Of a DNA stretch of 64,000 nt, positions 13,204-62,170 are shown one piece after another (the stretch's first letter is position 1; every line of letters starts with the position of its first letter). The DNA is from Clostridiales bacterium (GTDB lineage Bacteria > Bacillota > Desulfotomaculia > Desulfotomaculales > VENG01): assembly GCA_016278505.1 (NCBI GenBank), contig JADQBQ010000014.1:124001-188000 (forward strand), in the 5' to 3' direction. The notes under the pieces were generated by a model. The model worked only from the letters and a program-made list of their open reading frames with translations. It was not told where the DNA came from and did not search any database. A program made the position numbers and the translations under genes.

Positions 13204-14684
13204 ATGGGACGTCCAAGGTTTTATCGGCAAAACTTAATAAGTCAAATTAATTCTGTTAGCCAGAAAAGCCTGTGGGGCTGGTTAGTCAAAGAAACACAAG
13301 AGAAATACGGCATGGCTCCGGCAGAGGCCCGGCTGGTGGCTCTTAAAGGCCAGGCCTTCTTGCATCAGATCTCTGGCCGGGGCGAAAACCAGATTGAGAT
13401 TGAGCTCACTGCCAAAGAATACAGTGGCCGGCGCCAGAAACGAGGTGACCTGCCCCAGCGGGCTGTAATCATGACTCCAGTTAGCTCAGATGACCGGAAA
13501 TAGAAGAACGCTTTGGCCTCAAAGCCATGCAGAATGCCCGCCTGCTACGATTAATCGAAGAATCATACCTGCAGGGGGCCGTTTTTGACCAGCCCAAGCT
13601 CGGTATGGTCACCAACATTACCGCCAAGTCCGTACGTTCCAGGCTTTCTCCTTACCTGCAAAAGGGTATCTGGCTGCCTCTTCTCGAGCAAAAGCGTGAA
13701 TACAGGCTAAACCGTATCTTCCGCAGTACTTGCGCTTTGGAAGAACTGATATCCGGCAAGAGCAACGCTGAAGTTATGTCCGAGTTCCTGTACAACGAAA
13801 ACCAGTGGGAATCCATAAAGCTTGACTTTGTCCGAGCAATTAACACGGCCAAATGTGGTGACAAGATGGAGCAGACTGATATGCACCCGGAAATTGCGGC
13901 GGAATACGCATCCCTGGCTGAAAAAGTCTCGACCCAATCTCTATCCAAGCTGAGGCAGGAATTTATGACCTATTCGCCGCTCCTGCAAGATGAACCTGCA
14001 TTTAATCTGTTAACTGTACTGCAAGAAGAACATAACTTCTCGCCGGCCAAAGCCCGGGCTTACTTGCGCATGCTGCAAAAACACGCTGAGAAAGCTAACC
14101 AAAACCGCCCGGCTACAAGCATAATATATTACGCCGTCTCCGACCGGGAACCGCCGGGTAAGTCCTTGGCTGAGTGCAGCCTGATACCAGTAAATCTCTC
14201 GTATGTGCACAAAGAAGACGAAGCTCTAATTAACCCTGATTCCACCTCCCGGCTGAAATGGAAACGCATCCTACGCTACACCACTGAAGCCAAAAGCCAG
14301 GGGGCATATTTAAGCCAGCCGGATCTTGCCTACCTTCTGGGCGTGCACCCGGAGGTAATCCAAAAGCAGATGCAAGAACATACCAAAGTGGTGGTGCCCA
14401 CCAGGGGCAACCTGGCCGACATGGGTCCGGGCATTTCCCACATGGCTCGCATTGTAGAGCTTTACATGCAAGGCTACACTGAAACACAGATCAAATATCG
14501 TACCGGGCACAGTTATGAAAGCATTGAAGCTTACCTCAAAAACTTCTCTACCTACGTGGTGGGCCTTTTCGAGCAGGGATTGCCTAAAAACTTGATTCGC
14601 AAGGCCATAGGCAAATCCATGCGGGTGGTGAACTCCTGCGCCCGGCTGTATGAAAAGTTTAATACTACCAGTGGGCGTTTATGA
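13204..14684 (+). pseudogene. DUF1670-like protein, frameshifted copy 1
   Basis: Two frames together make one protein of about 490 residues. The first (13204-13503) contains KYGMAPAEARLVALKGQAFL and GRGENQIEIELTAKEYSG. The second (stop-free from about 13489, first ATG 13527) continues EIEERFGLKAMQNARLLRLI, then YLQGAVFDQPKLGMVTN. Near its end it has MARIVELYMQGYTETQIKYR followed by TGHSYESIEAYLKNF. The AEARLVAL/AKARAYL and HS.E.I..Y...F blocks resemble DUF1670, a family of unknown function seen in Clostridia and some archaea. Its repeated helix-turn-helix-like pieces suggest DNA binding. A one-base shift near 13490 separates the halves. It overlaps the next gene by ATGA. The family name is from memory and needs a profile search. 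Confidence 0.55.
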
Positions 14685-15972
14685 AACTGCGCCGCATCTT
14701 CGGCAAAAAAAAAGGGGGCGATTACATAGCCGCCAAGAGGTTCTCCATGTATGAACCTCTGCGGAAAAAAAACCTTTTCAATGCCCAGCGCTCAGAAATT
14801 ATCCGGCGCTTTGACCTGAACAAAGAATCCTGGTTGGCAGAAGAAGTGGTCTCCACAGTTGAAGAGGCGCTTACCGCCAGCGAGGAAGAGGACAGCATTG
14901 ATCGTCTTTATCCCGGCCAGCTGCTCACAGAAGAGATTGCACAAGACCTTTTGCATAACGGCCGCTTTCAAAATGCCAAGCACCAGGTACTGGCCGGTGC
15001 CCAAGACGCTGTGGCCCAGGAAATTCCCGGCGTCAAAGCACAGGATGTGGAAAAGGTCATTACTCCTAGAGAATTAATTCCACACAACGGCTACGGCAAA
15101 ATCTGTCCGCCTAAATCCCCCAAGTATCTCAACGGCAAGCTGGCCCCGCCCGAAAAGGTAGGTGCAAAGCCGCGTGCTTGGCCGACCGAAGCGGACATAT
15201 GGCTGCCTGCTGAAGTGGTGGACTCCCTGGTTGACTATTTAGCCAGGGAAGAAGGCATTAGCTCTAAGAAGGCCAATGCCATGGTATTCCGCCTGGCCCA
15301 CCTGCGGGAAATGTTCTGTCCCCGGGTAGACAAGCTAAAGCCAGGACAAGTGGCCTGGATCGGCATCAGCGCCACCGACAGGCCCAAGTGGGACCAGCGT
15401 ACGACCTACCGCCACCTAGTGCCGCTGGTACTCACTCTGCATACCAAAGAAGAGCTCAAGCAGCTGGCCAAGGTTAAAAACATTGAAGAGCTGGACAGGA
15501 TCCAGCAGGCACAAATGGCCAGGGTGCTTACCGAGGCCTACCTGCAAGGAGGGCTTTTATCCCTGGTGGACCTGCAGCAGCTGTTCTTAAGGTCTTACCA
15601 AACCTTTTCCCGGCTTATGCGCCAATTTATGCAGGAGCACGGGTACATCCTGCCAACACCCGGCACTGTGCTGGATGCCGGCAAGGCCATGACGCACAAG
15701 GACATTGTTATTCATCACTACCTGGACGGGTACTTTAGCCGTGAAATCGCCTGAATGACCTGGCACAGCCCGGAGGCGGTGGACAGATATATTGACGATT
15801 TTGAAAAGGTGATGGTGCTACATTTTTACGGCCTCCCACCAAGGCTGATTTCCCGGGCATGAACCGTGGGGTTGGTGTGGTGCAGGAGTACCTGCAGCTC
15901 ATTGACGAGCACTTCCCCGATAAAGAACATGTCAAGTCTCATTTAAGGCACTGTGGCGTTGAAATTTCCTGA
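14681..15972 (+). pseudogene. DUF1670-like protein, copy 2, with in-frame TGA and a frameshift
   Basis: This frame runs 357 codons to REIA and a TGA at 15752. The same frame then continues at once with MTWHSPEAVDRYIDDFEKVM, the HS.EAV.RYI..F motif expected here, so a former sense codon (for example CGA) has become a stop. A further one-base shift near 15859 leads to NRGVGVVQEYLQLIDEHF and a stop at 15972. The middle contains a diverged repeat of the helix-turn-helix-like pieces of copy 1. Both copies are damaged, so the pair is probably dead. Translational readthrough is possible but unsupported. Confidence 0.55.
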
Positions 15973-34251: not shown

Positions 34252-34296
34252 AATAACTCAAGCTTTTGGTGACAGTCACCAAAAACTTGAGTTATT
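34252..34296. repeat. 45-bp palindrome P1
   Basis: Left arm AATAACTCAAGCTTTTGGTGAC, central A, and a right arm complementary except for one base. It lies 5 bases after the stop of a deleted PIN toxin gene. Member of the 14-copy family whose copies flank the Y1 transposase gene at 45.6 kb. Confidence 0.92.
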
Positions 34297-35714: not shown

Positions 35715-35759
35715 AATAACTTAAGTTTTTGGTGACAGTCACCAAAAACTTGAGTTATT
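35715..35759. repeat. 45-bp palindrome P2
   Basis: AATAACTTAAGTTTTTGGTGAC, central A, then a right arm complementary apart from one base. It follows the stop of the MNT remnant by 14 bases and precedes the next TA module. Confidence 0.92.
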
Positions 35760-36385: not shown

Positions 36386-36430
36386 GACAATCTTAGTTTT
36401 CGGTGCCAGGCACCAAAAACTTGTGTTATT
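36386..36430. repeat. 45-bp palindrome P3, left arm degenerate
   Basis: The right arm GGCACCAAAAACTTGTGTTATT is nearly consensus and the centre is A. The left arm keeps TTTTCGGTGCC but has lost its outer part. It lies 24 bases after the stop of the RelE pseudogene. Confidence 0.8.
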
Positions 36431-36563
36431 TATACTCACATTTAGTGAATTACGTTTACAAGAGGGTTACCTTTCGGGCATTATTTCGTTCATGGTTTCA
36501 ATAAAAGTATTTAACCGCCGTTTCTTTAGAGATAAGGGAGGGACGAACAAAATTATTTACGGG

Positions 36564-37460: not shown

Positions 37461-37505
37461 AGAAGAACAAGTTTTTGGTGACAGGCACCAAAAACTTGAC
37501 TTATT
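37461..37505. repeat. 45-bp palindrome P4, left arm degenerate
   Basis: The left arm keeps CAAGTTTTTGGTGAC, the centre is A, and the right arm is GGCACCAAAAACTTGACTTATT. Its outer TTA (37501-37503, minus strand TAA) is the stop codon of the frame ending there. Confidence 0.85.
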
Positions 37506-38466: not shown

Positions 38467-38505
38467 AAAAAAGAATATGTTAACTTTCTTAAAGAGCAAT
38501 AACTC
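38467..38505 (+). pseudogene. 3' tail of a PIN-toxin gene fused to palindrome P5
   Basis: Bases 38467-38497 are identical to 35077-35107, the last codons of the PIN gene at 34660-35112 (KKEYVNFLKE). Identity stops exactly at the first base of P5. The following AATAAC supplies a new stop (GAG CAA TAA). Confidence 0.8.
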
Positions 38506-38542
38506 AAGTTTTTGGTGTCAGGCACCAAAAACTTGAGTTATT
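38498..38542. repeat. 45-bp palindrome P5
   Basis: AATAACTCAAGTTTTTGGTGTC, central A, then the complement with one T:G-type mismatch. It is bordered on the left by the PIN tail joint and followed by the 3' end of another PIN gene. Confidence 0.92.
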
Positions 38543-39276: not shown

Positions 39277-39321
39277 AATAACTCAAGTTTTCGGTGACAG
39301 GCACCCAAAACTTGACTTATT
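39277..39321. repeat. 45-bp palindrome P6
   Basis: AATAACTCAAGTTTTCGGTGAC, central A, GCACCCAAAACTTGACTTATT on the right, with several arm mismatches. The right arm supplies the TAA stop of the minus-strand gene ending at 39317. Confidence 0.9.
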
Positions 39322-40004: not shown

Positions 40005-41426
40005 ATGTCATTTTTATCACGGTTACTGTGTATAGTTTTACTGGTTTTAGTTTGTGCCGCCCCTGCCTATGCCCGGGTGCATGCGGGAGTCACGGTGGAC
40101 GACCGGGTGTACATACCGCTGCGGGGGGTTTTTGAAGAGATCGGATGCAGCGTGTCGTGGGACGGGGACATACAGGCGGTCGCCATCGTAAATGGCGAGC
40201 TGCGGATAGGACTTAAAGTGGGGGCCAGGGAGGTAACCATATCTGGTTCTATCGTTACCACCGAAAACCCGCCGCTGATGAGAAATGGCCGGGTGTATGT
40301 GCCGCTGCGTTTTTGCGCCGAGACCCTGGGTGCCGTGGTGGATTGGGATTCGGCTGCCCGGGAAGCAGTTGTGTCGTATGAAGGGAAAAATATTACGGTA
40401 ACTACCGCGCACGAGAGTTCCGGCAGCCCGGGGGATGCCGGGAACACCGGGAATACCGGCGGGAAAAGTGGTATCAAGCATTACACCCAAAAGATTGACG
40501 GCACTACGGCCAATGTGATTGAAATAGCGCCGGGCGCAGCTGTCCCTACGGTGGTGCTGGCCCAGGACCGGGTAGGCGGCACCGAAGAATTGGCCGCAAT
40601 GGCTTCCCGTTCCGGTGCCAAAGTGGCCATCAACGGCACCTTTTTCGAGGCTTACGACGGGGTACCGGAGCCTTGGGGCACATTAATTAAAAACGGGCAG
40701 GTCGTCCATGTGGGCAGCGTGGGTACCACCGTTGGTTTCACTGCCAGCGGCCAGGTAAAAATGTCACCGGTGGAAATAAACATCCAGGGCGGTAAAGACG
40801 GTTCCTACTCCTGGCCGGGTAACTGGTACGCTTATGGTTTCAACCGCACTCCCACCGGGAACAGCGTGTATATTTACACTCCTGAGCGAGGTGCCCGTTT
40901 GGGGTTTAAGTCAGGTATAAATGTGGTTGTTTCCGGCGGCAAGGTTACCAAAATAACCCGGGGCGAAAACAGCGATATACCCGGGGACGGCTATGTGATA
41001 AATCTATCCGGCTCGGAGGAATACCTGGCGGATAGGTTCAGCGTGGGGGACACCGTGCAGTACCGGGTCAATCTGAACGCCGGTGACGGCAGTGACTGGA
41101 GCGATGTGATTACGGCGGTGGGAGCCGGGCCCCGCCTGGTTACAGACGGTATGACCAGCGTGAACTCTGCCGGTGAGGGATTCACCAGTGAAAAGATACT
41201 CACCATGGCCGGCGCACGCAGCGCCATCGGAGTAAAACAAGACGGCACCATCATGCTGGTAACCGTGCCCGGTGCTACTATCGAAAGACTGGCCGGGATA
41301 ATGAAGGGGCTTGGCGCCCACAACGCCATGAACCTGGACGGCGGCGCCTCCTCGGGATTATGGTATAACGGCAAGCACATCACCCGCCCCGGCAGGCAGC
41401 TAAGCAACGCTCTGGTTTTCAAATAA
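40005..41426 (+). CDS. Exported phosphodiester glycosidase-family protein with copper-amine-oxidase-type N-terminal domain
   Basis: This 473-residue protein has a signal peptide (SFLSRLLCIVLLVLVCAAPA, then YA). Residues 25-130 contain two copper-amine-oxidase-like N-terminal repeats (VDDRVYIPLRGVFEEIGCSV; RNGRVYVPLRFCAETLGAVV). A Gly/Asn-rich linker leads to the NAGPA-type domain, with AINGTFFEAYDGVPEPWGTL, GAGPRLVTDGM and NAMNLDGGASSGLWYNG. Such proteins probably remove sugar-phosphate caps or act on wall glycans at the cell surface. A TCTGGAGG ribosome site precedes the ATG. Its TAA stop lies in palindrome P8. The 5' part is duplicated in truncated form at 43021. Confidence 0.88.
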   Translation: MSFLSRLLCIVLLVLVCAAPAYARVHAGVTVDDRVYIPLRGVFEEIGCSVSWDGDIQAVAIVNGELRIGLKVGAREVTISGSIVTTENPPLMRNGRVYVPLRFCAETLGAVVDWDSAAREAVVSYEGKNITVTTAHESSGSPGDAGNTGNTGGKSGIKHYTQKIDGTTANVIEIAPGAAVPTVVLAQDRVGGTEELAAMASRSGAKVAINGTFFEAYDGVPEPWGTLIKNGQVVHVGSVGTTVGFTASGQVKMSPVEINIQGGKDGSYSWPGNWYAYGFNRTPTGNSVYIYTPERGARLGFKSGINVVVSGGKVTKITRGENSDIPGDGYVINLSGSEEYLADRFSVGDTVQYRVNLNAGDGSDWSDVITAVGAGPRLVTDGMTSVNSAGEGFTSEKILTMAGARSAIGVKQDGTIMLVTVPGATIERLAGIMKGLGAHNAMNLDGGASSGLWYNGKHITRPGRQLSNALVFK

Positions 41427-41466
41427 CTCAAGTTTTTGGTGCCTGTCACCGAAAACTTGAGTTATT
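41422..41466. repeat. 45-bp palindrome P8
   Basis: AATAACTCAAGTTTTTGGTGCC, central T, right arm with two mismatches. It contains the stop codon of the glycosidase gene (TTC AAA TAA). A promoter TTGAAA (41466-41471) -16- TATAAT (41488-41493) for the next module starts at its edge. Confidence 0.92.
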
Positions 41467-42888: not shown

Positions 42889-42933
42889 AATAATTCAAGT
42901 TTACGGTGACAGTCACCGTAAACTTGAATTATT
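42889..42933. repeat. 45-bp palindrome P9, perfect, with paired changes
   Basis: AATAATTCAAGTTTACGGTGAC, central A, and an exact complement. Three positions differ from the family consensus, and each change is matched on the other arm, so the hairpin is fully kept. Confidence 0.95.
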
Positions 42934-43146: not shown

Positions 43147-43191
43147 AAATAAGTCAAGTTTCTGGTGCCTGGCACCGAAAACTTGACTTAT
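43147..43191. repeat. 45-bp palindrome P10
   Basis: AATAAGTCAAGTTTCTGGTGCC, central T, GGCACCGAAAACTTGACTTATT. The G of AAGTC is paired with the C of GACTT, a compensated difference from most copies. It contains the stop codon of the minus-strand gene ending at 43188. Confidence 0.93.
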
Positions 43192-44498
43192 TTGACCAGA
43201 TATTTCTTAGCGATGGACAACAAGACAGTACGGTTATTCTTATCGGGGTCTTCCAGTACTACATCCAACAATAAATTGAACACCCTGCCCATTTGGGGCC
43301 CCTGTTGCAAACCAATTTCTATAAGATCGTGGCCGTTGATGGCCAGGTCTTTTTGCGTCAAGGGAGGTTTTTCAAGGCGAATTCGGTCTAGGCCGTCACG
43401 CATGGCATCCAATTCCGAGAAGTTAAAGGGTGGCGCCGACCCGAGGATGTCGGCTCTTTGCAGGTCGAACAAGTCGTCCACATTATGCTCACCCACCCTG
43501 TTGACCAGCCTTTTCAGGCTGGTGTTCCTTACCTTGGGAAGGCGGCTCATGTGCTCAGCCACAAGTGCTGACACGTCCGCTCTGGTTTTGTTGTCATACT
43601 TAAGCCGCCTCATAATGTCCTCAGCCATCCTGCACCCCTCTTTATGGTGACTGTAGAAATGGCCGACCCCATTTTCATCTATGCTGAAGGTTGATGGTTT
43701 GCCAATATCATGCAGCAATGCGGCCAGGCGCACATTGAGGCGCGGAGGAACCGCTTCCAATACGGCCATGGTGTGCTCGAAGAGATCCTTGTCATGCCGT
43801 TTATTCCGCTGGTCAAATCCGGCCATGGGCATGGCCTCAGGCATGACATGCTGCAGCAATCCCGTCTCCAGCAAAAGCCGGATTCCCAGGGACGGCCGGT
43901 CGGATATCAAGATGCGATTAAGCTCTTCCCGCACCCGTTCCAGCGCAACTTTTGGCAACAGGGAAGCTTGTTTTATTATAGCCTCGTATGTTGTCGGGTG
44001 CAGTGAGAACCCCAACGCACTGCAGAACCGTATTGCCCGCATCATTCGCAAAGGATCTTCTACAAACCGCTGCTCCGGCTCATTTCGCGGCGACCGGATC
44101 ATCTGACGCTTGAGATCTTCCCGGCCGCCAAAGGGATCGTAAAGGCTGCCGTTTTCATCAACAGCCATGGCATTCATGGTAAAGTCCCTTAATGCAAGAT
44201 CCTGCTCCAAGCCGGCCGGGCTTTCCCCGCTTTGCTCAAGCATACACCCTTTGAAAGTTGAAACTTCCACGGCGGAGCCGCCTATCAAAACCGCAATGGT
44301 GCCGTGCCTCTCGCCGACAGGAACGGTTTTGGGAAAGAAAGATATAATTTCTTGCGTAGTTGCCGAAGTAGCTACATCATAGTCCGCCGGCATTCTTCCC
44401 ATCAACATATCCCTCACGCAGCCACCCACAACGAAGGCCTGTTTACCATTTTGTTTCAATGTTTGAATAACTTGAACTACATAAGAAGGTATCTGCAT
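43188..44498 (-). CDS. CCA-adding-type tRNA nucleotidyltransferase with HD domain
   Basis: This protein of about 436 residues has the class II nucleotidyltransferase head (FVVGGCVRDMLMGRMPADYD, then VATSATTQEIISFF). The flexible-loop and RNA-binding blocks are LRDFTMNAMAVDENGSLYDP and RFVEDPLRMMRAIRFCSALG. The HD domain (AALLHDIGKPSTFSIDENG, HHKEGCRMAEDIMRRLKYDN) is typical of CCA enzymes with phosphohydrolase activity. It would add CCA to tRNA 3' ends or repair them. ATG 44498 gives a conventional N-terminus; ATG 44528 would overlap the upstream gene. The stop codon lies in palindrome P10. Whether this is the housekeeping enzyme or an accessory copy is unclear. Confidence 0.9.
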   Translation of the reverse strand: MQIPSYVVQVIQTLKQNGKQAFVVGGCVRDMLMGRMPADYDVATSATTQEIISFFPKTVPVGERHGTIAVLIGGSAVEVSTFKGCMLEQSGESPAGLEQDLALRDFTMNAMAVDENGSLYDPFGGREDLKRQMIRSPRNEPEQRFVEDPLRMMRAIRFCSALGFSLHPTTYEAIIKQASLLPKVALERVREELNRILISDRPSLGIRLLLETGLLQHVMPEAMPMAGFDQRNKRHDKDLFEHTMAVLEAVPPRLNVRLAALLHDIGKPSTFSIDENGVGHFYSHHKEGCRMAEDIMRRLKYDNKTRADVSALVAEHMSRLPKVRNTSLKRLVNRVGEHNVDDLFDLQRADILGSAPPFNFSELDAMRDGLDRIRLEKPPLTQKDLAINGHDLIEIGLQQGPQMGRVFNLLLDVVLEDPDKNNRTVLLSIAKKYLVK

Positions 44499-44515
44499 TA
44501 CAGGTCTCTCTTTCT

Positions 44516-45523
44516 TTAGGTTTTCCATGCTGCATCAGCAAAGTTCGCCTCGGTTATATCAATTAAAAGCTGGTTTACCTTCTCGGCATCCGGGGAATCA
44601 GGAAGCTCACTGTTCGCGTACGCTTCATCCAGCAAACTGAATAGTTTTCCGGCCTCTTGTTTGATATGATCCAGCGTAAACTCACCGTACCGGATGGCCA
44701 TCAAATAATTGTTATCGGGCCGCAAAACCCTGCATTCACCTTCCGTAAGAATCTCCAGTCCCATGTGCAGCAGTCGAATTAAATGCATGGCGTGCTTAAC
44801 ATCGTAGCCGTATTTTTCGATAAGTCCGGCATGAGAGCCATGGTGATTGTGGTTTCCTCCACGCATAAGCCTTTCGATCTCAGCCCGGTCTTCTTCAATA
44901 GCAGCCAGCCGTTGCTCCACCGATGCAAGTTCACTGCGCAGATTCAGAATATACTGGATATCATCACGGGTTAACTGCTCTTTTTGAAAATACTGCGTTA
45001 TCTTGTGTTCCACCCTGACAGCGTAAGTTTGTAAATTTTTCTCAGTCTCAGTAAGTTTTGAGATCTTGCTTTTCGACTCTTCCATAGGAAGCTTATTGGT
45101 CAGCCTGCGCAACTGGCTGAAAGCATAACCGCCAAAGGTGTGCCTGGCCCTTCTGGTCAGAAAAAGATGGCGATTATCCATTAACATCCGGCCCAGGCTA
45201 TTGCAATGCAAAACATGCGTCCGGTCAGTGAATAAAGTTTCAATGATGTTTGGATTACAGTTAAATGCCAGTTTTACAAACTTGTGCAGCCCGTAAATCA
45301 CGGTGTCGGCAGCTAATCCCGTTTTTTTATACCCAGGATAGTTTGTATAGCTTTTTGATTCATATTGCTCAAAGGAATAAAAACCATATAAATATGGTTT
45401 GGGCGGGATACAAACCCCACCAATATCCACATCGCTATTAGCATGATTAGTACCGTAAGCATGTGAGCCTTTATATACCTTTAAAATTATACGATCCTCC
45501 AACCACTTTTCCACTTCGTACAT
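44516..45523 (-). CDS. RlaP/YcgL-like predicted nucleotidyltransferase
   Basis: This 335-residue protein has an N-terminal polymerase-beta nucleotidyltransferase motif (VYKGSHAYGTNHANSDVDIG, with GS and DxD) and the following block IPPKPYLYGFYSFEQYESKS. A helical C-terminus contains LIRLLHMGLEILTEGE. This is the plan of RlaP/YcgL, a family predicted to act on RNA, often near RNA-repair genes. It lies directly upstream of the CCA-type enzyme, with the two frames abutting, which supports a joint RNA-end-processing role. ATG 45523 has GAAGGA upstream. Palindrome P11 starts 25 bases before it. Confidence 0.82.
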   Translation of the reverse strand: MYEVEKWLEDRIILKVYKGSHAYGTNHANSDVDIGGVCIPPKPYLYGFYSFEQYESKSYTNYPGYKKTGLAADTVIYGLHKFVKLAFNCNPNIIETLFTDRTHVLHCNSLGRMLMDNRHLFLTRRARHTFGGYAFSQLRRLTNKLPMEESKSKISKLTETEKNLQTYAVRVEHKITQYFQKEQLTRDDIQYILNLRSELASVEQRLAAIEEDRAEIERLMRGGNHNHHGSHAGLIEKYGYDVKHAMHLIRLLHMGLEILTEGECRVLRPDNNYLMAIRYGEFTLDHIKQEAGKLFSLLDEAYANSELPDSPDAEKVNQLLIDITEANFADAAWKT

Positions 45524-45547: not shown

Positions 45548-45592
45548 AATAACTCAAGTTTCCGGTGCCAGGCACCGAAAACTTGAGTTATT
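45548..45592. repeat. 45-bp palindrome P11 (downstream flank of the transposase)
   Basis: AATAACTCAAGTTTCCGGTGCC, central A, complementary right arm with one mismatch. Bases 45588-45590 are the TAA stop of the transposase gene on the minus strand. Confidence 0.95.
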
Positions 45593-46409
45593 TTAGCATT
45601 TTGGACATGTTTGATTCAGATAAGCTTATATGTTGGGCGATTTGCCGCTTGGTGTAGTTTTGTTTATGAGCTTCCCGGGCAAAGACTTTTTTGTACGCTG
45701 TCAGGTCCCGCCTGCGGCTGCCGTTTTTGATCAGTTCGAATTCTTTTGCGCTTACCCCTGTACCGCGGAGTATTTCGTCTAGGCCTTCACCGGCCTTGTC
45801 TCCCTTCGAACTATGCTCTGCAATAAAGTCCTCGTCACCGACCACGCTTACTGAGCTATAGTCGTGAGTCTCCCCTTTTTGCACAAATGCTTTATAGCTT
45901 GCTATGGCCTTTTTCCGATTATCGGAAAAGATATCGAGAATAAGGTCTATGTCTATAAATCCGGGTTGGTTTTTCCGGTAGTATACATCACTGCTCCAGG
46001 GATATTCCCATACATTTTTGCATATCTCGCCTCTGACGGGATTCTGGTGCACGTACCTTAATAAGGTCACGGCGTACCTCTCGTTCTGCACCAATATCGC
46101 CTTATACCGGCCTTCAAAAACGTGCCCTGTACGCTCTTTACAATGATTATAATGCCTGGCAAATGAACTATTCACATGATGCATTATTTTATGTAAGGGA
46201 TTAGTTAGCGTCTGCAATATCAAATGATAGTGATTTCCCATAATGACATACCCGTACAGCCTAAAATCAAGATGCTTTTTACAATAAATCAACTTTCTCA
46301 AAAAATAATTCTTTTCATTATCATTGTCAAAAACAAACTCACGATTATTTCCCCGTTGAATTACGTGATACAAGGCACCCTCAAACTCAATCCGTGGCCT
46401 TCTGCCCAC
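45588..46409 (-). CDS. Y1 (HUH) transposase, REP-associated (RAYT) type
   Basis: This protein of about 273 residues from GTG 46409 has AAGGGGTG 6 bases upstream; ATG 46430 has no ribosome site. The start GRRPRIEFEGALYHVIQRGN is typical of the family. The HUH motif is YVIMGNHYHLIL (His60, His62), and the candidate nucleophile is Tyr119 in LLRYVHQNPVRGE. EGRYKAILV and WEYPWSSDVYY are further family blocks. A C-terminal helix-turn-helix (YTKRQIAQHISLSESNMSKM) ends the protein. Such enzymes cut and join single-stranded hairpin DNA through a 5' phosphotyrosine. All catalytic residues are present, so it may be active. Confidence 0.9.
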   Translation of the reverse strand: MGRRPRIEFEGALYHVIQRGNNREFVFDNDNEKNYFLRKLIYCKKHLDFRLYGYVIMGNHYHLILQTLTNPLHKIMHHVNSSFARHYNHCKERTGHVFEGRYKAILVQNERYAVTLLRYVHQNPVRGEICKNVWEYPWSSDVYYRKNQPGFIDIDLILDIFSDNRKKAIASYKAFVQKGETHDYSSVSVVGDEDFIAEHSSKGDKAGEGLDEILRGTGVSAKEFELIKNGSRRRDLTAYKKVFAREAHKQNYTKRQIAQHISLSESNMSKMLK

Positions 46410-46457
46410 CGACCTGCACCCCTTATCCATTTTGGCAAATATTATCTGATAATTATG

Positions 46458-46502
46458 AATAAGTCAAGTTTTCGGTGACTGGCACCAAAAACTTGAGTTA
46501 TT
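46458..46502. repeat. 45-bp palindrome P12 (upstream flank of the transposase)
   Basis: AATAAGTCAAGTTTTCGGTGAC, central T, GGCACCAAAAACTTGAGTTATT, with a few arm mismatches. It also abuts the stop codon of the HlyD-like gene ending at 46502 (one-base overlap). Confidence 0.93.
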
Positions 46503-47158
46503 TATTTGATGTGGATGCGGACTATGGCGTTGGTGCCTACTACCAGGGGTTGTCCTGCGTAGTCGTCGAGTTTGATGGTTATGGGCACTCGCTGTACTAC
46601 TTTGGTGAAGTTGCCGCTGGCGTTGCCGGACGGGAGCAGTGAGAAGGTGGAAAGTGATGCTCCCCTGATGGAGTCTACTTTGCCGTCGAAGGTTTTACCG
46701 GGGATGCTGTCGATGGTGACTTCTACGTACTGCCCGGGTTTTATTTTGGAGAGGTCGGTTTCTTCTATGTTGGCGCTGATGTACATGTCGGAGGTGTCTA
46801 CCACCATGGCTACCGGCTGGCCGGGTGCACCTATTTCTCCTTCATGGGCGGGGACATATACTACTCTGCCGTCTATGGGTGTGCGCACCAGGGTGCGGTT
46901 TAGGTTGGCGCCTTTCGGCAGGTTGGCTTCGTCCAGGCGGGCCAGTATTTGGCCTGCTTTTACTTTGTCGCCGCTGGCTGCGTCGATTTCGATTATTTTG
47001 CCGGCTATCTGGGGGCTTACTTTGATGACGTCGGCGTCTACTTTGGCGTCTTCGGTGGTGACGTAGCGGGCGTTGTTGTACCAGTAATACCCGCTGACGC
47101 CGGCGAGGGTTAGGATCATTATGGCGAATATGGCGATAAAGGTTTTTTTGTTTTTCAT
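46502..47158 (-). CDS. Short HlyD/EmrA-like membrane fusion protein
   Basis: This 218-residue protein has a single N-terminal membrane anchor (TFIAIFAIMILTLAGVSGYY) and a lipoyl/barrel-sandwich half (YVTTEDAKVDADVIKVSPQI, AGKIIEIDAASGDKVKAGQI). The second half joins after a very short linker (VRTPIDGRVVYVPAHEGEIG), followed by the beta-barrel domain. The usual coiled-coil hairpin between the lipoyl halves is absent, so it is a compact version. ATG 47158 has GGGGGAG upstream. No transporter gene is directly attached; the nearest is the RND pump upstream. It may serve an MFS or ABC exporter elsewhere. Confidence 0.85.
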   Translation of the reverse strand: MKNKKTFIAIFAIMILTLAGVSGYYWYNNARYVTTEDAKVDADVIKVSPQIAGKIIEIDAASGDKVKAGQILARLDEANLPKGANLNRTLVRTPIDGRVVYVPAHEGEIGAPGQPVAMVVDTSDMYISANIEETDLSKIKPGQYVEVTIDSIPGKTFDGKVDSIRGASLSTFSLLPSGNASGNFTKVVQRVPITIKLDDYAGQPLVVGTNAIVRIHIK

Positions 47159-57500: not shown

Positions 57501-57639
57501 CTTTGTCAAAAAGTTTAAAACATGTCGGACAAAAAATACAAACAGAGACTTTTAATCAAATAAGGATTTGCAGGAAAAACAAGGTAGCTAGCCAATTATA
57601 GTACTCATCAGAGAAAAATCCAAAGAAAGGTTGTTACCT

Positions 57640-59115
57640 ATGCAAAAGACCGGCAGATCGATTATTTTACTGACCCTGACAGCCTTTTTATGCCTGGTGG
57701 GTACTAATCCAGCCCTTGCACTGGATATTTACTGGAAACCCTCGGAGAAAAATACCGGTTACAGCCAGAGGCTTTATTCCACCACTAACAAAGTAGACAT
57801 CCAAGTGCGCGTGGAAGATGCCGAGGAAGTACAGGTGAACGGCGAGGAAGCTATGCAGTACGGAGATGATGACTCGGATTTATGGCTGCTGGACGAGTAC
57901 ATCTTAGAGCCCGGGGAAAACACCATTAGCGTCTCAGTGACATTAGATGAATCCGCTACCGATGACGAAGATGAGGAGGACGTGGAAACCAGTGGTGAAA
58001 TTACCATCACTGTCTTTGACCGTCCACTTTCCGGTTCCACCCGCTATTTCGAGGATGTCGGTGAGGGCATAACGGCTTTTGACGGTGCCGTTGAGCTAAC
58101 CTTACCTGAGAACGCGGTCATCACGCGGGGCAGCAGGGCGGCCTGGGATCAGGGTGTTACCGTGCGCAGTTCCGAGCCTTTATTTAAATTATCACCTAAA
58201 TATGTACCACTCAGCCCGGTTTACACCATAAACGCCCCCGCATCGTCTTACTCGCTTTCCGATGCGGGCGAATTGACTCTGGAATATGACAGCGCTACCG
58301 GCGCTAATAACGGCTACATAACCGTCCTTTATGCCATGCCCAACATGATGTACCCGCAAGCCATGCAAAGACAGAACAGCTACAACTTAACCGGTGACAG
58401 CGTTACCGTTCCGTTCTCTAAGACCGGCTTTGGAAATTACCTGGTAGTACGTGTAATCCAGGACTTTCAGGATTTTTATCTTAAACAGGAAGGCAAAATT
58501 GACCTGGAATGGGCGCGCCCTTATATAATGACATTATGGTCCCGGGGAATAATGGGCGGGCTGGAAAGATACCCGGACGGTAGGCCGGTGCCGGAAGGCT
58601 TCTTTGGGCTGGCGAATAGTTCCGGGAGCTCAGAGATTTCCATTACCCGCAAAGAATTTATAACAATGCTGGGTAAAGGGATGCGGTTGCCGGTTACATT
58701 CTCTCTGCCGCACCTGCGCACTTTCCAAGATCTGCAGGGTATTGAATTGGAACAAATACAGTATATAGAGGCGGCGATGAGGGCCGGCTGGATTCCCAGC
58801 ACTGCGCCCAAGGATGGAAGACTATCCTTTAGGCCCGGGGATCCGCTGACGCGCGGGCAAGCCTGCATTATTATGGCCCGGGCACTGGGTCTGCAGCTCC
58901 CTACTCAGGACAGGGCCAGCCAGCAGTTGCAGGCCTACTTCCCAGCAGACTATCAGTCCACTTACAGCTGGAACAGACCCCATATAATCGCCGGCATCCA
59001 GGCCGGGCTGCTGCCTTTAACCAAAAAAGGAGCACTACAGCCGGATAAAGCGGTAACCCGGGCCGAAGCAGCCCGCATGGTCTATAAAGTAATGAAGATA
59101 GCCAATAAGCTCTAA
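57640..59115 (+). CDS. Secreted protein with S-layer homology (SLH) domains
   Basis: This 491-residue protein has a signal peptide (SIILLTLTAFLCLVGTNPAL, then ALA) and an N-terminal acidic beta-rich region with an Asp/Glu-rich stretch near residue 115. Three C-terminal SLH-like repeats are marked by WARPYIMTLWSRGIMGGLER, IEAAMRAGWIPSTAPKDGRL with FRPGDPLTRGQACIIMARAL, and PHIIAGIQAGLLPLTKKGAL with PDKAVTRAEAARMVYKVM. SLH domains bind pyruvylated wall polysaccharide, so it is a surface protein. ATG 57640 is preferred (AAAGG upstream) over TTG 57631. Palindrome P13 begins 4 bases after its stop. Confidence 0.93.
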   Translation: MQKTGRSIILLTLTAFLCLVGTNPALALDIYWKPSEKNTGYSQRLYSTTNKVDIQVRVEDAEEVQVNGEEAMQYGDDDSDLWLLDEYILEPGENTISVSVTLDESATDDEDEEDVETSGEITITVFDRPLSGSTRYFEDVGEGITAFDGAVELTLPENAVITRGSRAAWDQGVTVRSSEPLFKLSPKYVPLSPVYTINAPASSYSLSDAGELTLEYDSATGANNGYITVLYAMPNMMYPQAMQRQNSYNLTGDSVTVPFSKTGFGNYLVVRVIQDFQDFYLKQEGKIDLEWARPYIMTLWSRGIMGGLERYPDGRPVPEGFFGLANSSGSSEISITRKEFITMLGKGMRLPVTFSLPHLRTFQDLQGIELEQIQYIEAAMRAGWIPSTAPKDGRLSFRPGDPLTRGQACIIMARALGLQLPTQDRASQQLQAYFPADYQSTYSWNRPHIIAGIQAGLLPLTKKGALQPDKAVTRAEAARMVYKVMKIANKL

Positions 59116-59119
59116 CCCA

Positions 59120-59164
59120 AATAACTCAAGTTTCCGGTGCCTGTCACTAAAAACTTGAGTTATT
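59120..59164. repeat. 45-bp palindrome P13
   Basis: AATAACTCAAGTTTCCGGTGCC, central T, right arm with a few mismatches. It lies between the SLH gene stop (4 bases) and the 3' end of a PIN toxin gene (28 bases). Confidence 0.92.
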
Positions 59165-60947: not shown

Positions 60948-61934
60948 CTAATCTTGCAATTCTTTCTTTAGTTTTAAAACAACTTCTCTGGATAGTCCGG
61001 TTATTTCCACTACTACATCTACAGATAACCCTTTTACCAGTGCTGCCCTAGCAACGTCCATCCTACCCTTTTGTTCTCCTCTTTGTTCTCCTCTTTGTTC
61101 TCCTCTTTTTTCGCCTTTTCTTTCTCCTTTTTGTTCCGCCTGTTTTTTCATTTCATCCAAGGTCAGTTCAAGGTTGGTGATCATTATTTCCACCTCCCAC
61201 GGGTTATTAACTTCTAAAATACGGTCCATTTCTTCCTGTAGGTATTCCGGCATTTTGGGTTTTACTACGTTTTTAAGCCAGGTCATTATTTGCCTAAATT
61301 CATCGGGGGTTAATTCTTTTAGTATCCCAATCAGCTTTCTCAGGCGATTAGTCAGTTCCTGGTGGTTCATGGTCTGATCCAACACAAACACGCTGGCGAT
61401 CACGTTGGCCGCTTGGTATAGCTCTTCTTGGCTATATCGGTTGATGTCGAAGAGTATGTAGTTAAAATCTAATATATGTTTTTGAAATCTTTCATGACCG
61501 GATAGGATTTCTCTGAACCGGGTACTTGCGGTCCAATTACTTTCACCATTATAGAGTACTGCAGGTATTATGGCAGGGAGACGGAAGTCTTTCCTTTCCC
61601 TTTCATTTTCCGGGGTATTATTGTACGCATCGCGCCAGATCTCAGTCATGTATAGCAAGAGGCGGAAAGGCATGGTGTAGTCTACGGTGGACTGAAGTTC
61701 CAGTAGTACGTAGAATATAACATTGGTGTCTTTTACCTGCATTCTGTAGACAATGTCGGCCTCTTTCTCTTTGAAGTCCTGCAGGACGTACGATTTATTA
61801 ACCGGTATCAGATCGTCTTCGTTTATTTCTTTTACCCATTCTTCCCTGACAAAGGTTTTTATGAGTTCTAAAAAGGCTTTTTTGTTAGACAAGAGCTGTT
61901 TGTAGCCTTTGTCGTGAGAATGATGAATGGACAT
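60948..61934 (-). CDS. Rpn/PD-(D/E)XK family nuclease (transposase-like, recombination-promoting type)
   Basis: This 328-residue protein has the nuclease core DFKEKEADIVYRMQVKDTNV followed by IFYVLLELQSTVDYTMPFRL, with D...E-x-Q in the active-site position, then YMTEIWRDAYNN. This is the Rpn/YhgA-type pattern. The C-terminus carries a highly charged repeat (KGERKGEKRGEQRGEQRGEQ) and a helix typical of this family in Firmicutes. ATG 61934 has AAGGAAGTG upstream. The frame is open further upstream into palindrome P14, but that part is not coding. Rpn proteins cut DNA and can promote RecA-independent recombination. Confidence 0.88.
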   Translation of the reverse strand: MSIHHSHDKGYKQLLSNKKAFLELIKTFVREEWVKEINEDDLIPVNKSYVLQDFKEKEADIVYRMQVKDTNVIFYVLLELQSTVDYTMPFRLLLYMTEIWRDAYNNTPENERERKDFRLPAIIPAVLYNGESNWTASTRFREILSGHERFQKHILDFNYILFDINRYSQEELYQAANVIASVFVLDQTMNHQELTNRLRKLIGILKELTPDEFRQIMTWLKNVVKPKMPEYLQEEMDRILEVNNPWEVEIMITNLELTLDEMKKQAEQKGERKGEKRGEQRGEQRGEQKGRMDVARAALVKGLSVDVVVEITGLSREVVLKLKKELQD

Positions 61935-62048
61935 AAAAATCACTTCCTTGTTAATTATTATACCATACTTGGAAATCCGGTAGAAGTTGACGATTTTGAG
62001 GCCCATGGTTTTTAATTGTTCATTAATATGAGTTAGATAAAAAAAAGA

Positions 62049-62085
62049 AAATCCCCTTCCGGAATGCATCCCGGAGAGGGGATTG
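62049..62085. terminator. Terminator-like hairpin repeat
   Basis: AATCCCCTTCCGGAATG pairs with CATCCCGGAGAGGGGATT. It is the third copy of the AATCCCCTTCC family in the last 4 kb and lies between the Rpn-type gene and palindrome P14. Confidence 0.6.
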
Positions 62086-62125
62086 TTATTTTCTATTTTA
62101 CATCCAGCACCTTCTGTTCTTGAAA

Positions 62126-62170
62126 AATAACTCAAGTTTTTGGTGCCTGGCACCAGGAACTTGAGTTATT
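62126..62170. repeat. 45-bp palindrome P14
   Basis: AATAACTCAAGTTTTTGGTGCC, central T, GGCACCAGGAACTTGAGTTATT; two mismatches. It is the last copy in the window and the only full one not close to a stop codon of a recognisable gene. Confidence 0.92.

Follow-up and report, generated by a model that had tools for sequence, protein, structure and literature searches.

A Y1 transposase gene and its dispersed palindrome in a Clostridiales bacterium: a probable TIRtron-like element with REP-like miniature copies

In the stretch of DNA analysed here (the window; 64,000 nucleotides, C41:124001-188000 of the 3.92 Mb, 56-contig genome G000) a transposase gene stands between two copies of a palindrome that is dispersed in the same genome, which raises the question of what kind of element the gene and its palindromes form. 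An earlier note on this DNA proposed a divergent RAYT-palindrome pair in Clostridia. The gene-palindrome pair is real and coherent, and by its anatomy it is RAYT/REP-like; we think it probable that it represents a TIRtron-like element, i.e., a subclass 2.1-type Y1 transposase with self-complementary inverted ends that have spread as REP-like miniatures. The locus bears on the origin of REP-like repeats and on why one palindrome pairs with one transposase.

The transposase gene (45588-46409, minus strand) encodes 273 residues when read from a GTG at 46409, the start favored by its homologs (MGRRPR...), or 280 residues from an alternative ATG at 46430. Its product is an HUH/Tyr (Y1) transposase with a single catalytic tyrosine: the NHYH and YVHQNP motifs are intact, and both HUH histidines and the catalytic tyrosine are invariant across eight aligned homologs. 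The numbering first given for these residues (His60, His62 and Tyr119) is correct for translation from GTG 46409, and becomes H67/H69/Y126 when counted from ATG 46430. The protein matched PF01797 (E-value 9e-10) and the NCBIfam model NF047646, REP_Tyr_transpos (7e-21; 74.6 bits, under the cut-off of 80), and a PDB search with a profile of the eight homologs returned TnpA_REP (4ER8) as its sole match, a weak one (0.017). A phmmer search of the PDB with the transposase gave chance-level matches only, no relative turned up when the GTDB contigs were searched with this one protein, and an AlphaFold (AF2) model made without an alignment was too poor for use (pLDDT 38.6). Weak C-terminal helix-turn-helix (HTH) signals were seen in some homologs (HTH_28, 0.0036; HTH_23, 0.042; Sigma70_r4, 0.012), the matches coming from one or two clade members only and the window protein itself giving none. 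The gene has a HUH/Tyr core and hairpin ends in common with the IS200/IS605 family (TnpA of IS608 and ISDra2), and no target duplication was noticed; it differs from that family in having Y...NP rather than Y...Q, inverted rather than direct ends, a single copy in the genome (plus a 54% identical paralog) and no tnpB seen beside it. Membership of IS200/IS605 was rejected on the YVHQNP motif, the length of 273-280 residues and the copy number.

The palindromes do directly flank this gene, as the earlier note had it: P11 lies downstream (45548-45592, minus strand) and P12 upstream (46458-46502, plus strand), in the opposite orientation. These 45-bp copies are 88% identical over 50 nt. Their arms had been described as 22 bp long and nearly perfect around one central base, which holds for P11 (21 of 22 positions complementary) and less so for P12 (19 of 22). 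The stop codon of the transposase, TAA at 45588-45590, was likewise correctly placed within the end of P11, where it is part of the palindrome's own AATAA; P12 abuts the upstream HlyD-like gene, whose stop at 46502-46504 has one base in common with it. As single-stranded DNA such palindromes fold as a single hairpin (-20.0, -13.2 and -20.7 kcal/mol for three copies, with z from -6.9 to -12.6; -20 kcal/mol and z -10 for P11, z -6.9 for P12). A 35-nt pattern, allowing up to three mismatches, matched five times in the window vs 0.00 times in shuffles, and a chance origin of the palindromes is thereby excluded.

Across G000 the general form AATAAnT..GTGnCnGnCAC..AnTTATT is shared by 38 two-sided palindromes (0 with the reversed control), which arm sequence sorts into three families: F1, that of the window (17 strict copies, about 22 including partial ones), F2 (13 copies) and F3 (8 copies). 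F1 is strongly clustered, with nine of its strict copies falling in a span of 12.3 kb (the null reached 4 at most) and 12 within 40 kb; 14 of the 22 copies lie at most 20 kb from the transposase gene, where 0.22 would be expected, and F1 copies are also present on other contigs. As F2 and F3, found over 10 and 8 contigs, respectively, are not clustered, F1 clustering is not a general property of these families. None of the other 112 genomes searched in the order has the F1 arm pattern, and the exact pattern was not found in the GTDB contig collection, from which this genome itself was possibly left out. Rfam and tRNA scans of the window and a PADLOC search gave no matches, and nothing relevant was found in the literature naming the palindrome core by sequence.

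The 13 window copies include, besides P11 and P12, several dispersed on either strand (the strand being that of CTG). On the minus strand these are 34252-34296, 35715-35759, two one-sided copies that keep only the foot 5' of the CTG hairpin (36391-36435, with approximate edges, and 37461-37505), and three that immediately follow a Shine-Dalgarno-like sequence, GGAGGAGC at 38498-38542 and 39277-39321 and GGAGGAACA at 42889-42933, the last a perfect palindrome in which both arms have changed; on the plus strand they are 41422-41466, 43148-43192, 59120-59164 and 62126-62170. Gene boundaries are tight sites of F1: five of the 13 copies contain or abut a stop codon. Stops lie within the copies at 39277 (of a 165-aa ORF), 41422 (of ORF 40005-41426) and 43148 (of a PolyA_pol/HD-domain gene, 43188-44528), and the copy at 59120 lies 5 bp past the stop of ORF 57631-59115. 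The copy at 38498 may part its Shine-Dalgarno-like GGAGGAGC from the start of the downstream gene. A YhgA-like putative transposase gene (60948-62153; PF04754, E-value 4e-33) adjoins the palindrome at 62126.

Positions at stops and after Shine-Dalgarno-like sequences favor the view that the palindromes are selected host sites (operators, chromosome-organising sites, terminators or mRNA stabilisers) at which the transposase has inserted or which it carries, as does the fact that palindromy is maintained via paired changes and that some genomes have repeats without the gene. However, the arms vary by family and genome, following the transposase tree, the F1 pattern is confined to this genome among the 113 of the order, and most copies have no T-run after them, though some score terminator-like; terminators were rejected as the main role, and host sites in general are a distinctly unlikely explanation. 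Duplication or recombination of a palindrome-bearing segment, in place of hopping, would fit the concentration of F1 in ~12 kb, and duplicated segments do hold some of the one-sided repeats of genus g31; but the F1 copies have unrelated flanks beyond the palindrome, occur in both orientations and extend to other contigs. On these grounds segmental duplication of the cluster was rejected, and we consider such an origin very improbable. By eye, the only insertion consensus in the oriented F1 flanks is an A-rich base before the foot.

No GTAG-like foot had been noticed at the palindromes, and indeed GT[AG]G was found 0-2 nt 5' of the hairpin at none of the 13 oriented window copies. A look for a conserved foot revealed, instead of GTAG, another one adjoining the hairpin: AATAAGTT in relatives, and AATAACTC or AATAAGTC in F1. 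Read outward from the gene, P11 runs from the foot AATAACTC into a hairpin with a CTG loop and P12 from the foot AATAAGTC to the CTG loop, and this outward order of foot and CTG is found on both flanks of all three genes that have two-sided palindromes (the window gene, its paralog and the homolog in the sister genus G001). The two-sided palindromes are terminal inverted repeats with a hidden polarity. The unpaired core positions of the window copies share this polarity (GTGCCTGTCAC), with P12 as the exception; in four of four F1 copies that are missing one foot, the remaining foot is the one 5' of the CTG strand, which is only suggestive as evidence of polarity; and about 131 of 150 one-sided matches across the order, by a hand count among the matches listed, have T at the hairpin center with the foot first. 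As to the paired changes, in 20 F1 copies 15 cells are altered on both sides, vs 8.3 in shuffles and 0-2 with slid partners, and the pairs with a both-sided change number five, a count reached in 28 of 500 shuffles. Arm-to-arm copying during replication could yield the same paired changes without selection.

A survey of 113 genomes of the order identified 20 with a homolog of the transposase at an E-value of 2e-57 or less, and in 15 of 20 clade members the terminal inverted-repeat score exceeded the maximum of 100 shuffles; this automatic score missed loci L088, L098 and L099, and at L089 the best-scoring pair was an inner repeat. The relatives have a common end plan in which, outward from the gene, AATAAGTTAATAAGTTA is followed by a short hairpin, in inverted repeats. 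The ancestral-looking end has the foot AATAAGTT(AATAAGTTA), with one or two AATAAGTT units, and the hairpin GGTGC-CTG-GCACC. Among the loci read, nine have GGTGCCTGGCACC as the end hairpin, G027 and G029 have GGTACC types, G013 has GAGCCTGACCCC, G103 has GGTGCCTGACCCC at its upstream end, and G088 and G090 have GGTGTC/GGTGCC mixtures. At the window gene, the paralog (C41:68193-68981; palindromes 68152-68194 and 69011-69053) and the 61% identical G001 homolog (palindromes 14396-14436 and 15300-15340) there is a second foot on the far side, giving one 41-45-bp palindrome; the arms of the paralog and G001 palindromes are unlike F1, but their design is alike. In relatives, then, the transposase is flanked by other sequences than in the window but by the same design, with the end type following the transposase. 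With modest sampling, and with end types that were assigned after the sequences were seen, several of them by reading flanks, the five types need four changes on the tree of the transposases, which is the minimum (shuffles had a mean of 7.6, and 0 of 2000 reached 4); end type thus tracks the transposase tree perfectly. The G001 transposase is in the same neighborhood as that of the window, ~8 kb off and beyond the AcrB gene, and the HlyD C-terminus RIHIK*, at whose stop P12 starts in the window, has no palindrome in G001. This comparison is one between genera, at a synteny break, and offers no clean empty site.

The association of gene and repeats was also seen in the counts: GTGCC-type repeats occur in 13 of 20 genomes with a close homolog vs 26 of 93 without (Fisher p 0.003). 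When seven genomes with other or unfound ends are left out this becomes 13 of 13 vs 26 of 93 (Fisher p 5e-7), an exclusion chosen after the ends were seen, so that 0.003 is the safer figure. Repeats exist without a close homolog in G063-G066, G025 and G081. The adverse case named earlier, genomes rich in the palindrome that never had the gene, was partly seen in G063, a single contig, 100% complete, which holds nine one-sided repeats but lacks a homolog; its congeners G062 and G067 carry one, and gene loss would explain the G063 repeats. In addition, two palindrome families have the same design and no flanked transposase, F3 (8 copies) and a 29-bp family of G001 (16 copies); these may be orphans or mobilised by the enzyme of another family. 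The F3 sites are on C6, C19, C23, C36:64207, C38:227, C44, C45 and C47:16322. One-sided AATAAGTTAAGTGCCTGGCAC repeats at L175-L178 (G062, G063, G064 and G066, all of one genus) lie in duplicated or syntenic segments, some in genomes without a homolog.

By its motifs, its length and a probable C-terminal HTH, the transposase would fit TIRYT/subclass 2.1 (Bertels group 1), an assignment that these sequence features partly support. Subclass 2.1, in which no REP-like sequences were found (Quentin 2018, PMC6006769), has been equated with Bertels group 1 and is probably the TIRYT group of Di Nocera 2013 (PMC6006769; PMC3733652). Its HUH motif, NHVH or NH[YF]H, appears as NHYH here and in close homologs and as NHFH in two, and YVHQNP is one residue off the published YIELNP or Y[IV]HLNP while agreeing with the class-2 Y---NP. 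The locus is like TIRtrons/TIRYTs in its Y1 transposase, by NH[YF]H and, less clearly, by Y[IV]H.NP and a long C-terminus that may carry an HTH, in terminal inverted repeats around the gene that lie at or overlap its ends, in moderately abundant dispersed repeats and in self-complementarity, which some TIRYT repeats have. The consensus GGGGWSAS, said of 'some' or the 'majority' of TIRs and not strictly defining (PMC3733652; PMC6006769), fits the ends of the relatives G013 and G103 (GGGGTCAG) but is not in the window repeats (GGTGCCAG/GGTGACAG). Unlike in TIRtrons/TIRYTs, the ends here are GGTG[CA]CAG, fully symmetric and footed on either side, F1 shows strong clustering near the gene, and the ends follow the tree of their transposases. 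None of six likely clostridial and related genus names or terms occurs in the text of PMC3733652.

The closest competitor in anatomy is a canonical RAYT/REP pair, i.e., a gene of the TnpA_REP branch with ordinary REPs that have lost or changed their GTAG foot. In RAYT/REP and REPIN systems (TnpA_REP; E. coli, Pseudomonas, Stenotrophomonas), too, a single-copy Y1 transposase with Y..NP lies between inverted copies of a dispersed palindrome, each transposase has its own palindrome family, stems show paired changes and genes co-evolve with repeats, and the REP_Tyr_transpos and weak 4ER8 matches speak for this reading as well. We nevertheless hold it unlikely: the NCBIfam score is under the cut-off, the NHYH/YVHQNP motifs, the protein length and the C-terminal HTH signal would fit subclass 2.1 (REP-less in PMC6006769), another branch by motif, the foot is AATAAGTT-like and not GT[AG]G, the palindrome is perfect and long, and there are ~20 copies where canonical REPs usually exceed 100 (PMC2817692). 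In a tree with E. coli rayT the latter sat on an extremely long branch, and the placement was not settled by the tree. Double-foot REPs, of subclass 2.4 (PMC6006769), resemble the window palindromes in having a foot and its reverse complement at the hairpin ends, but again the foot here is other than GT[AG]G, and by motif the transposases belong to different branches. What stands of the divergent RAYT-palindrome pair first proposed is thus a single-copy Y1 transposase with its own dispersed palindrome, whereas the enzyme itself appears to belong with TIRYT/subclass 2.1.

For the TIRtron-like element that we favor, whose F1 ends also occur alone as ~20 REP-like miniature copies, the enzyme may bind the folded hairpin in single-stranded DNA, by analogy with TnpA_REP and IS200/IS605 (PMC8266576, PMC6006769). 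By the same analogy the foot would guide the choice of cleavage point and the nicked palindrome would join another single-stranded site; insertion at gene boundaries could occur without harm, and the local F1 cluster might reflect insertion near the donor or near the gene of the enzyme. Mobility is what we infer from comparing sequences, no insertion event having been seen between close strains, and since F1 copies are few and partly diverged the activity may be past. Local hopping may be read from the F1 cluster only, the pattern being absent for F2, F3 and the G001 families. Tentatively, we suggest as a possibility that a TIRYT-type transposase independently evolved REP-like, non-autonomous elements, its terminal repeats having turned into perfect two-footed hairpins that move by themselves and insert mainly within ~20 kb of the gene; if so, the F1 cluster would record hopping that was local and perhaps linked to the replication fork, and such clustering about a single gene could reveal whether these elements hop locally. 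The clade forms a graded series within one order, from one-sided inverted ends in most genomes to two-sided dispersed palindromes in one family, and we regard as the strongest new points the two-sided ends, whose polarity is hidden, and the end type that tracks the transposase. The foot (AATAAGTT) and the CTG-loop polarity are features open to a simple nicking assay.

Some minor observations concern the relatives and the assembly. At L087, L089, L091 and L092 an inverted repeat such as ACACCTCCTGTTAAAATATAGCAGGAGGTGT lies just upstream of the transposase and spans its likely Shine-Dalgarno sequence, GGAGGTGT; it could mask the ribosome site and so limit translation. Both C41 and C16 have clusters of F1-like copies close to their ends, and these contigs may be chromosomal neighbors. 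At the ends of C11, C38 and C51 stand F2 copies that are nearly identical.
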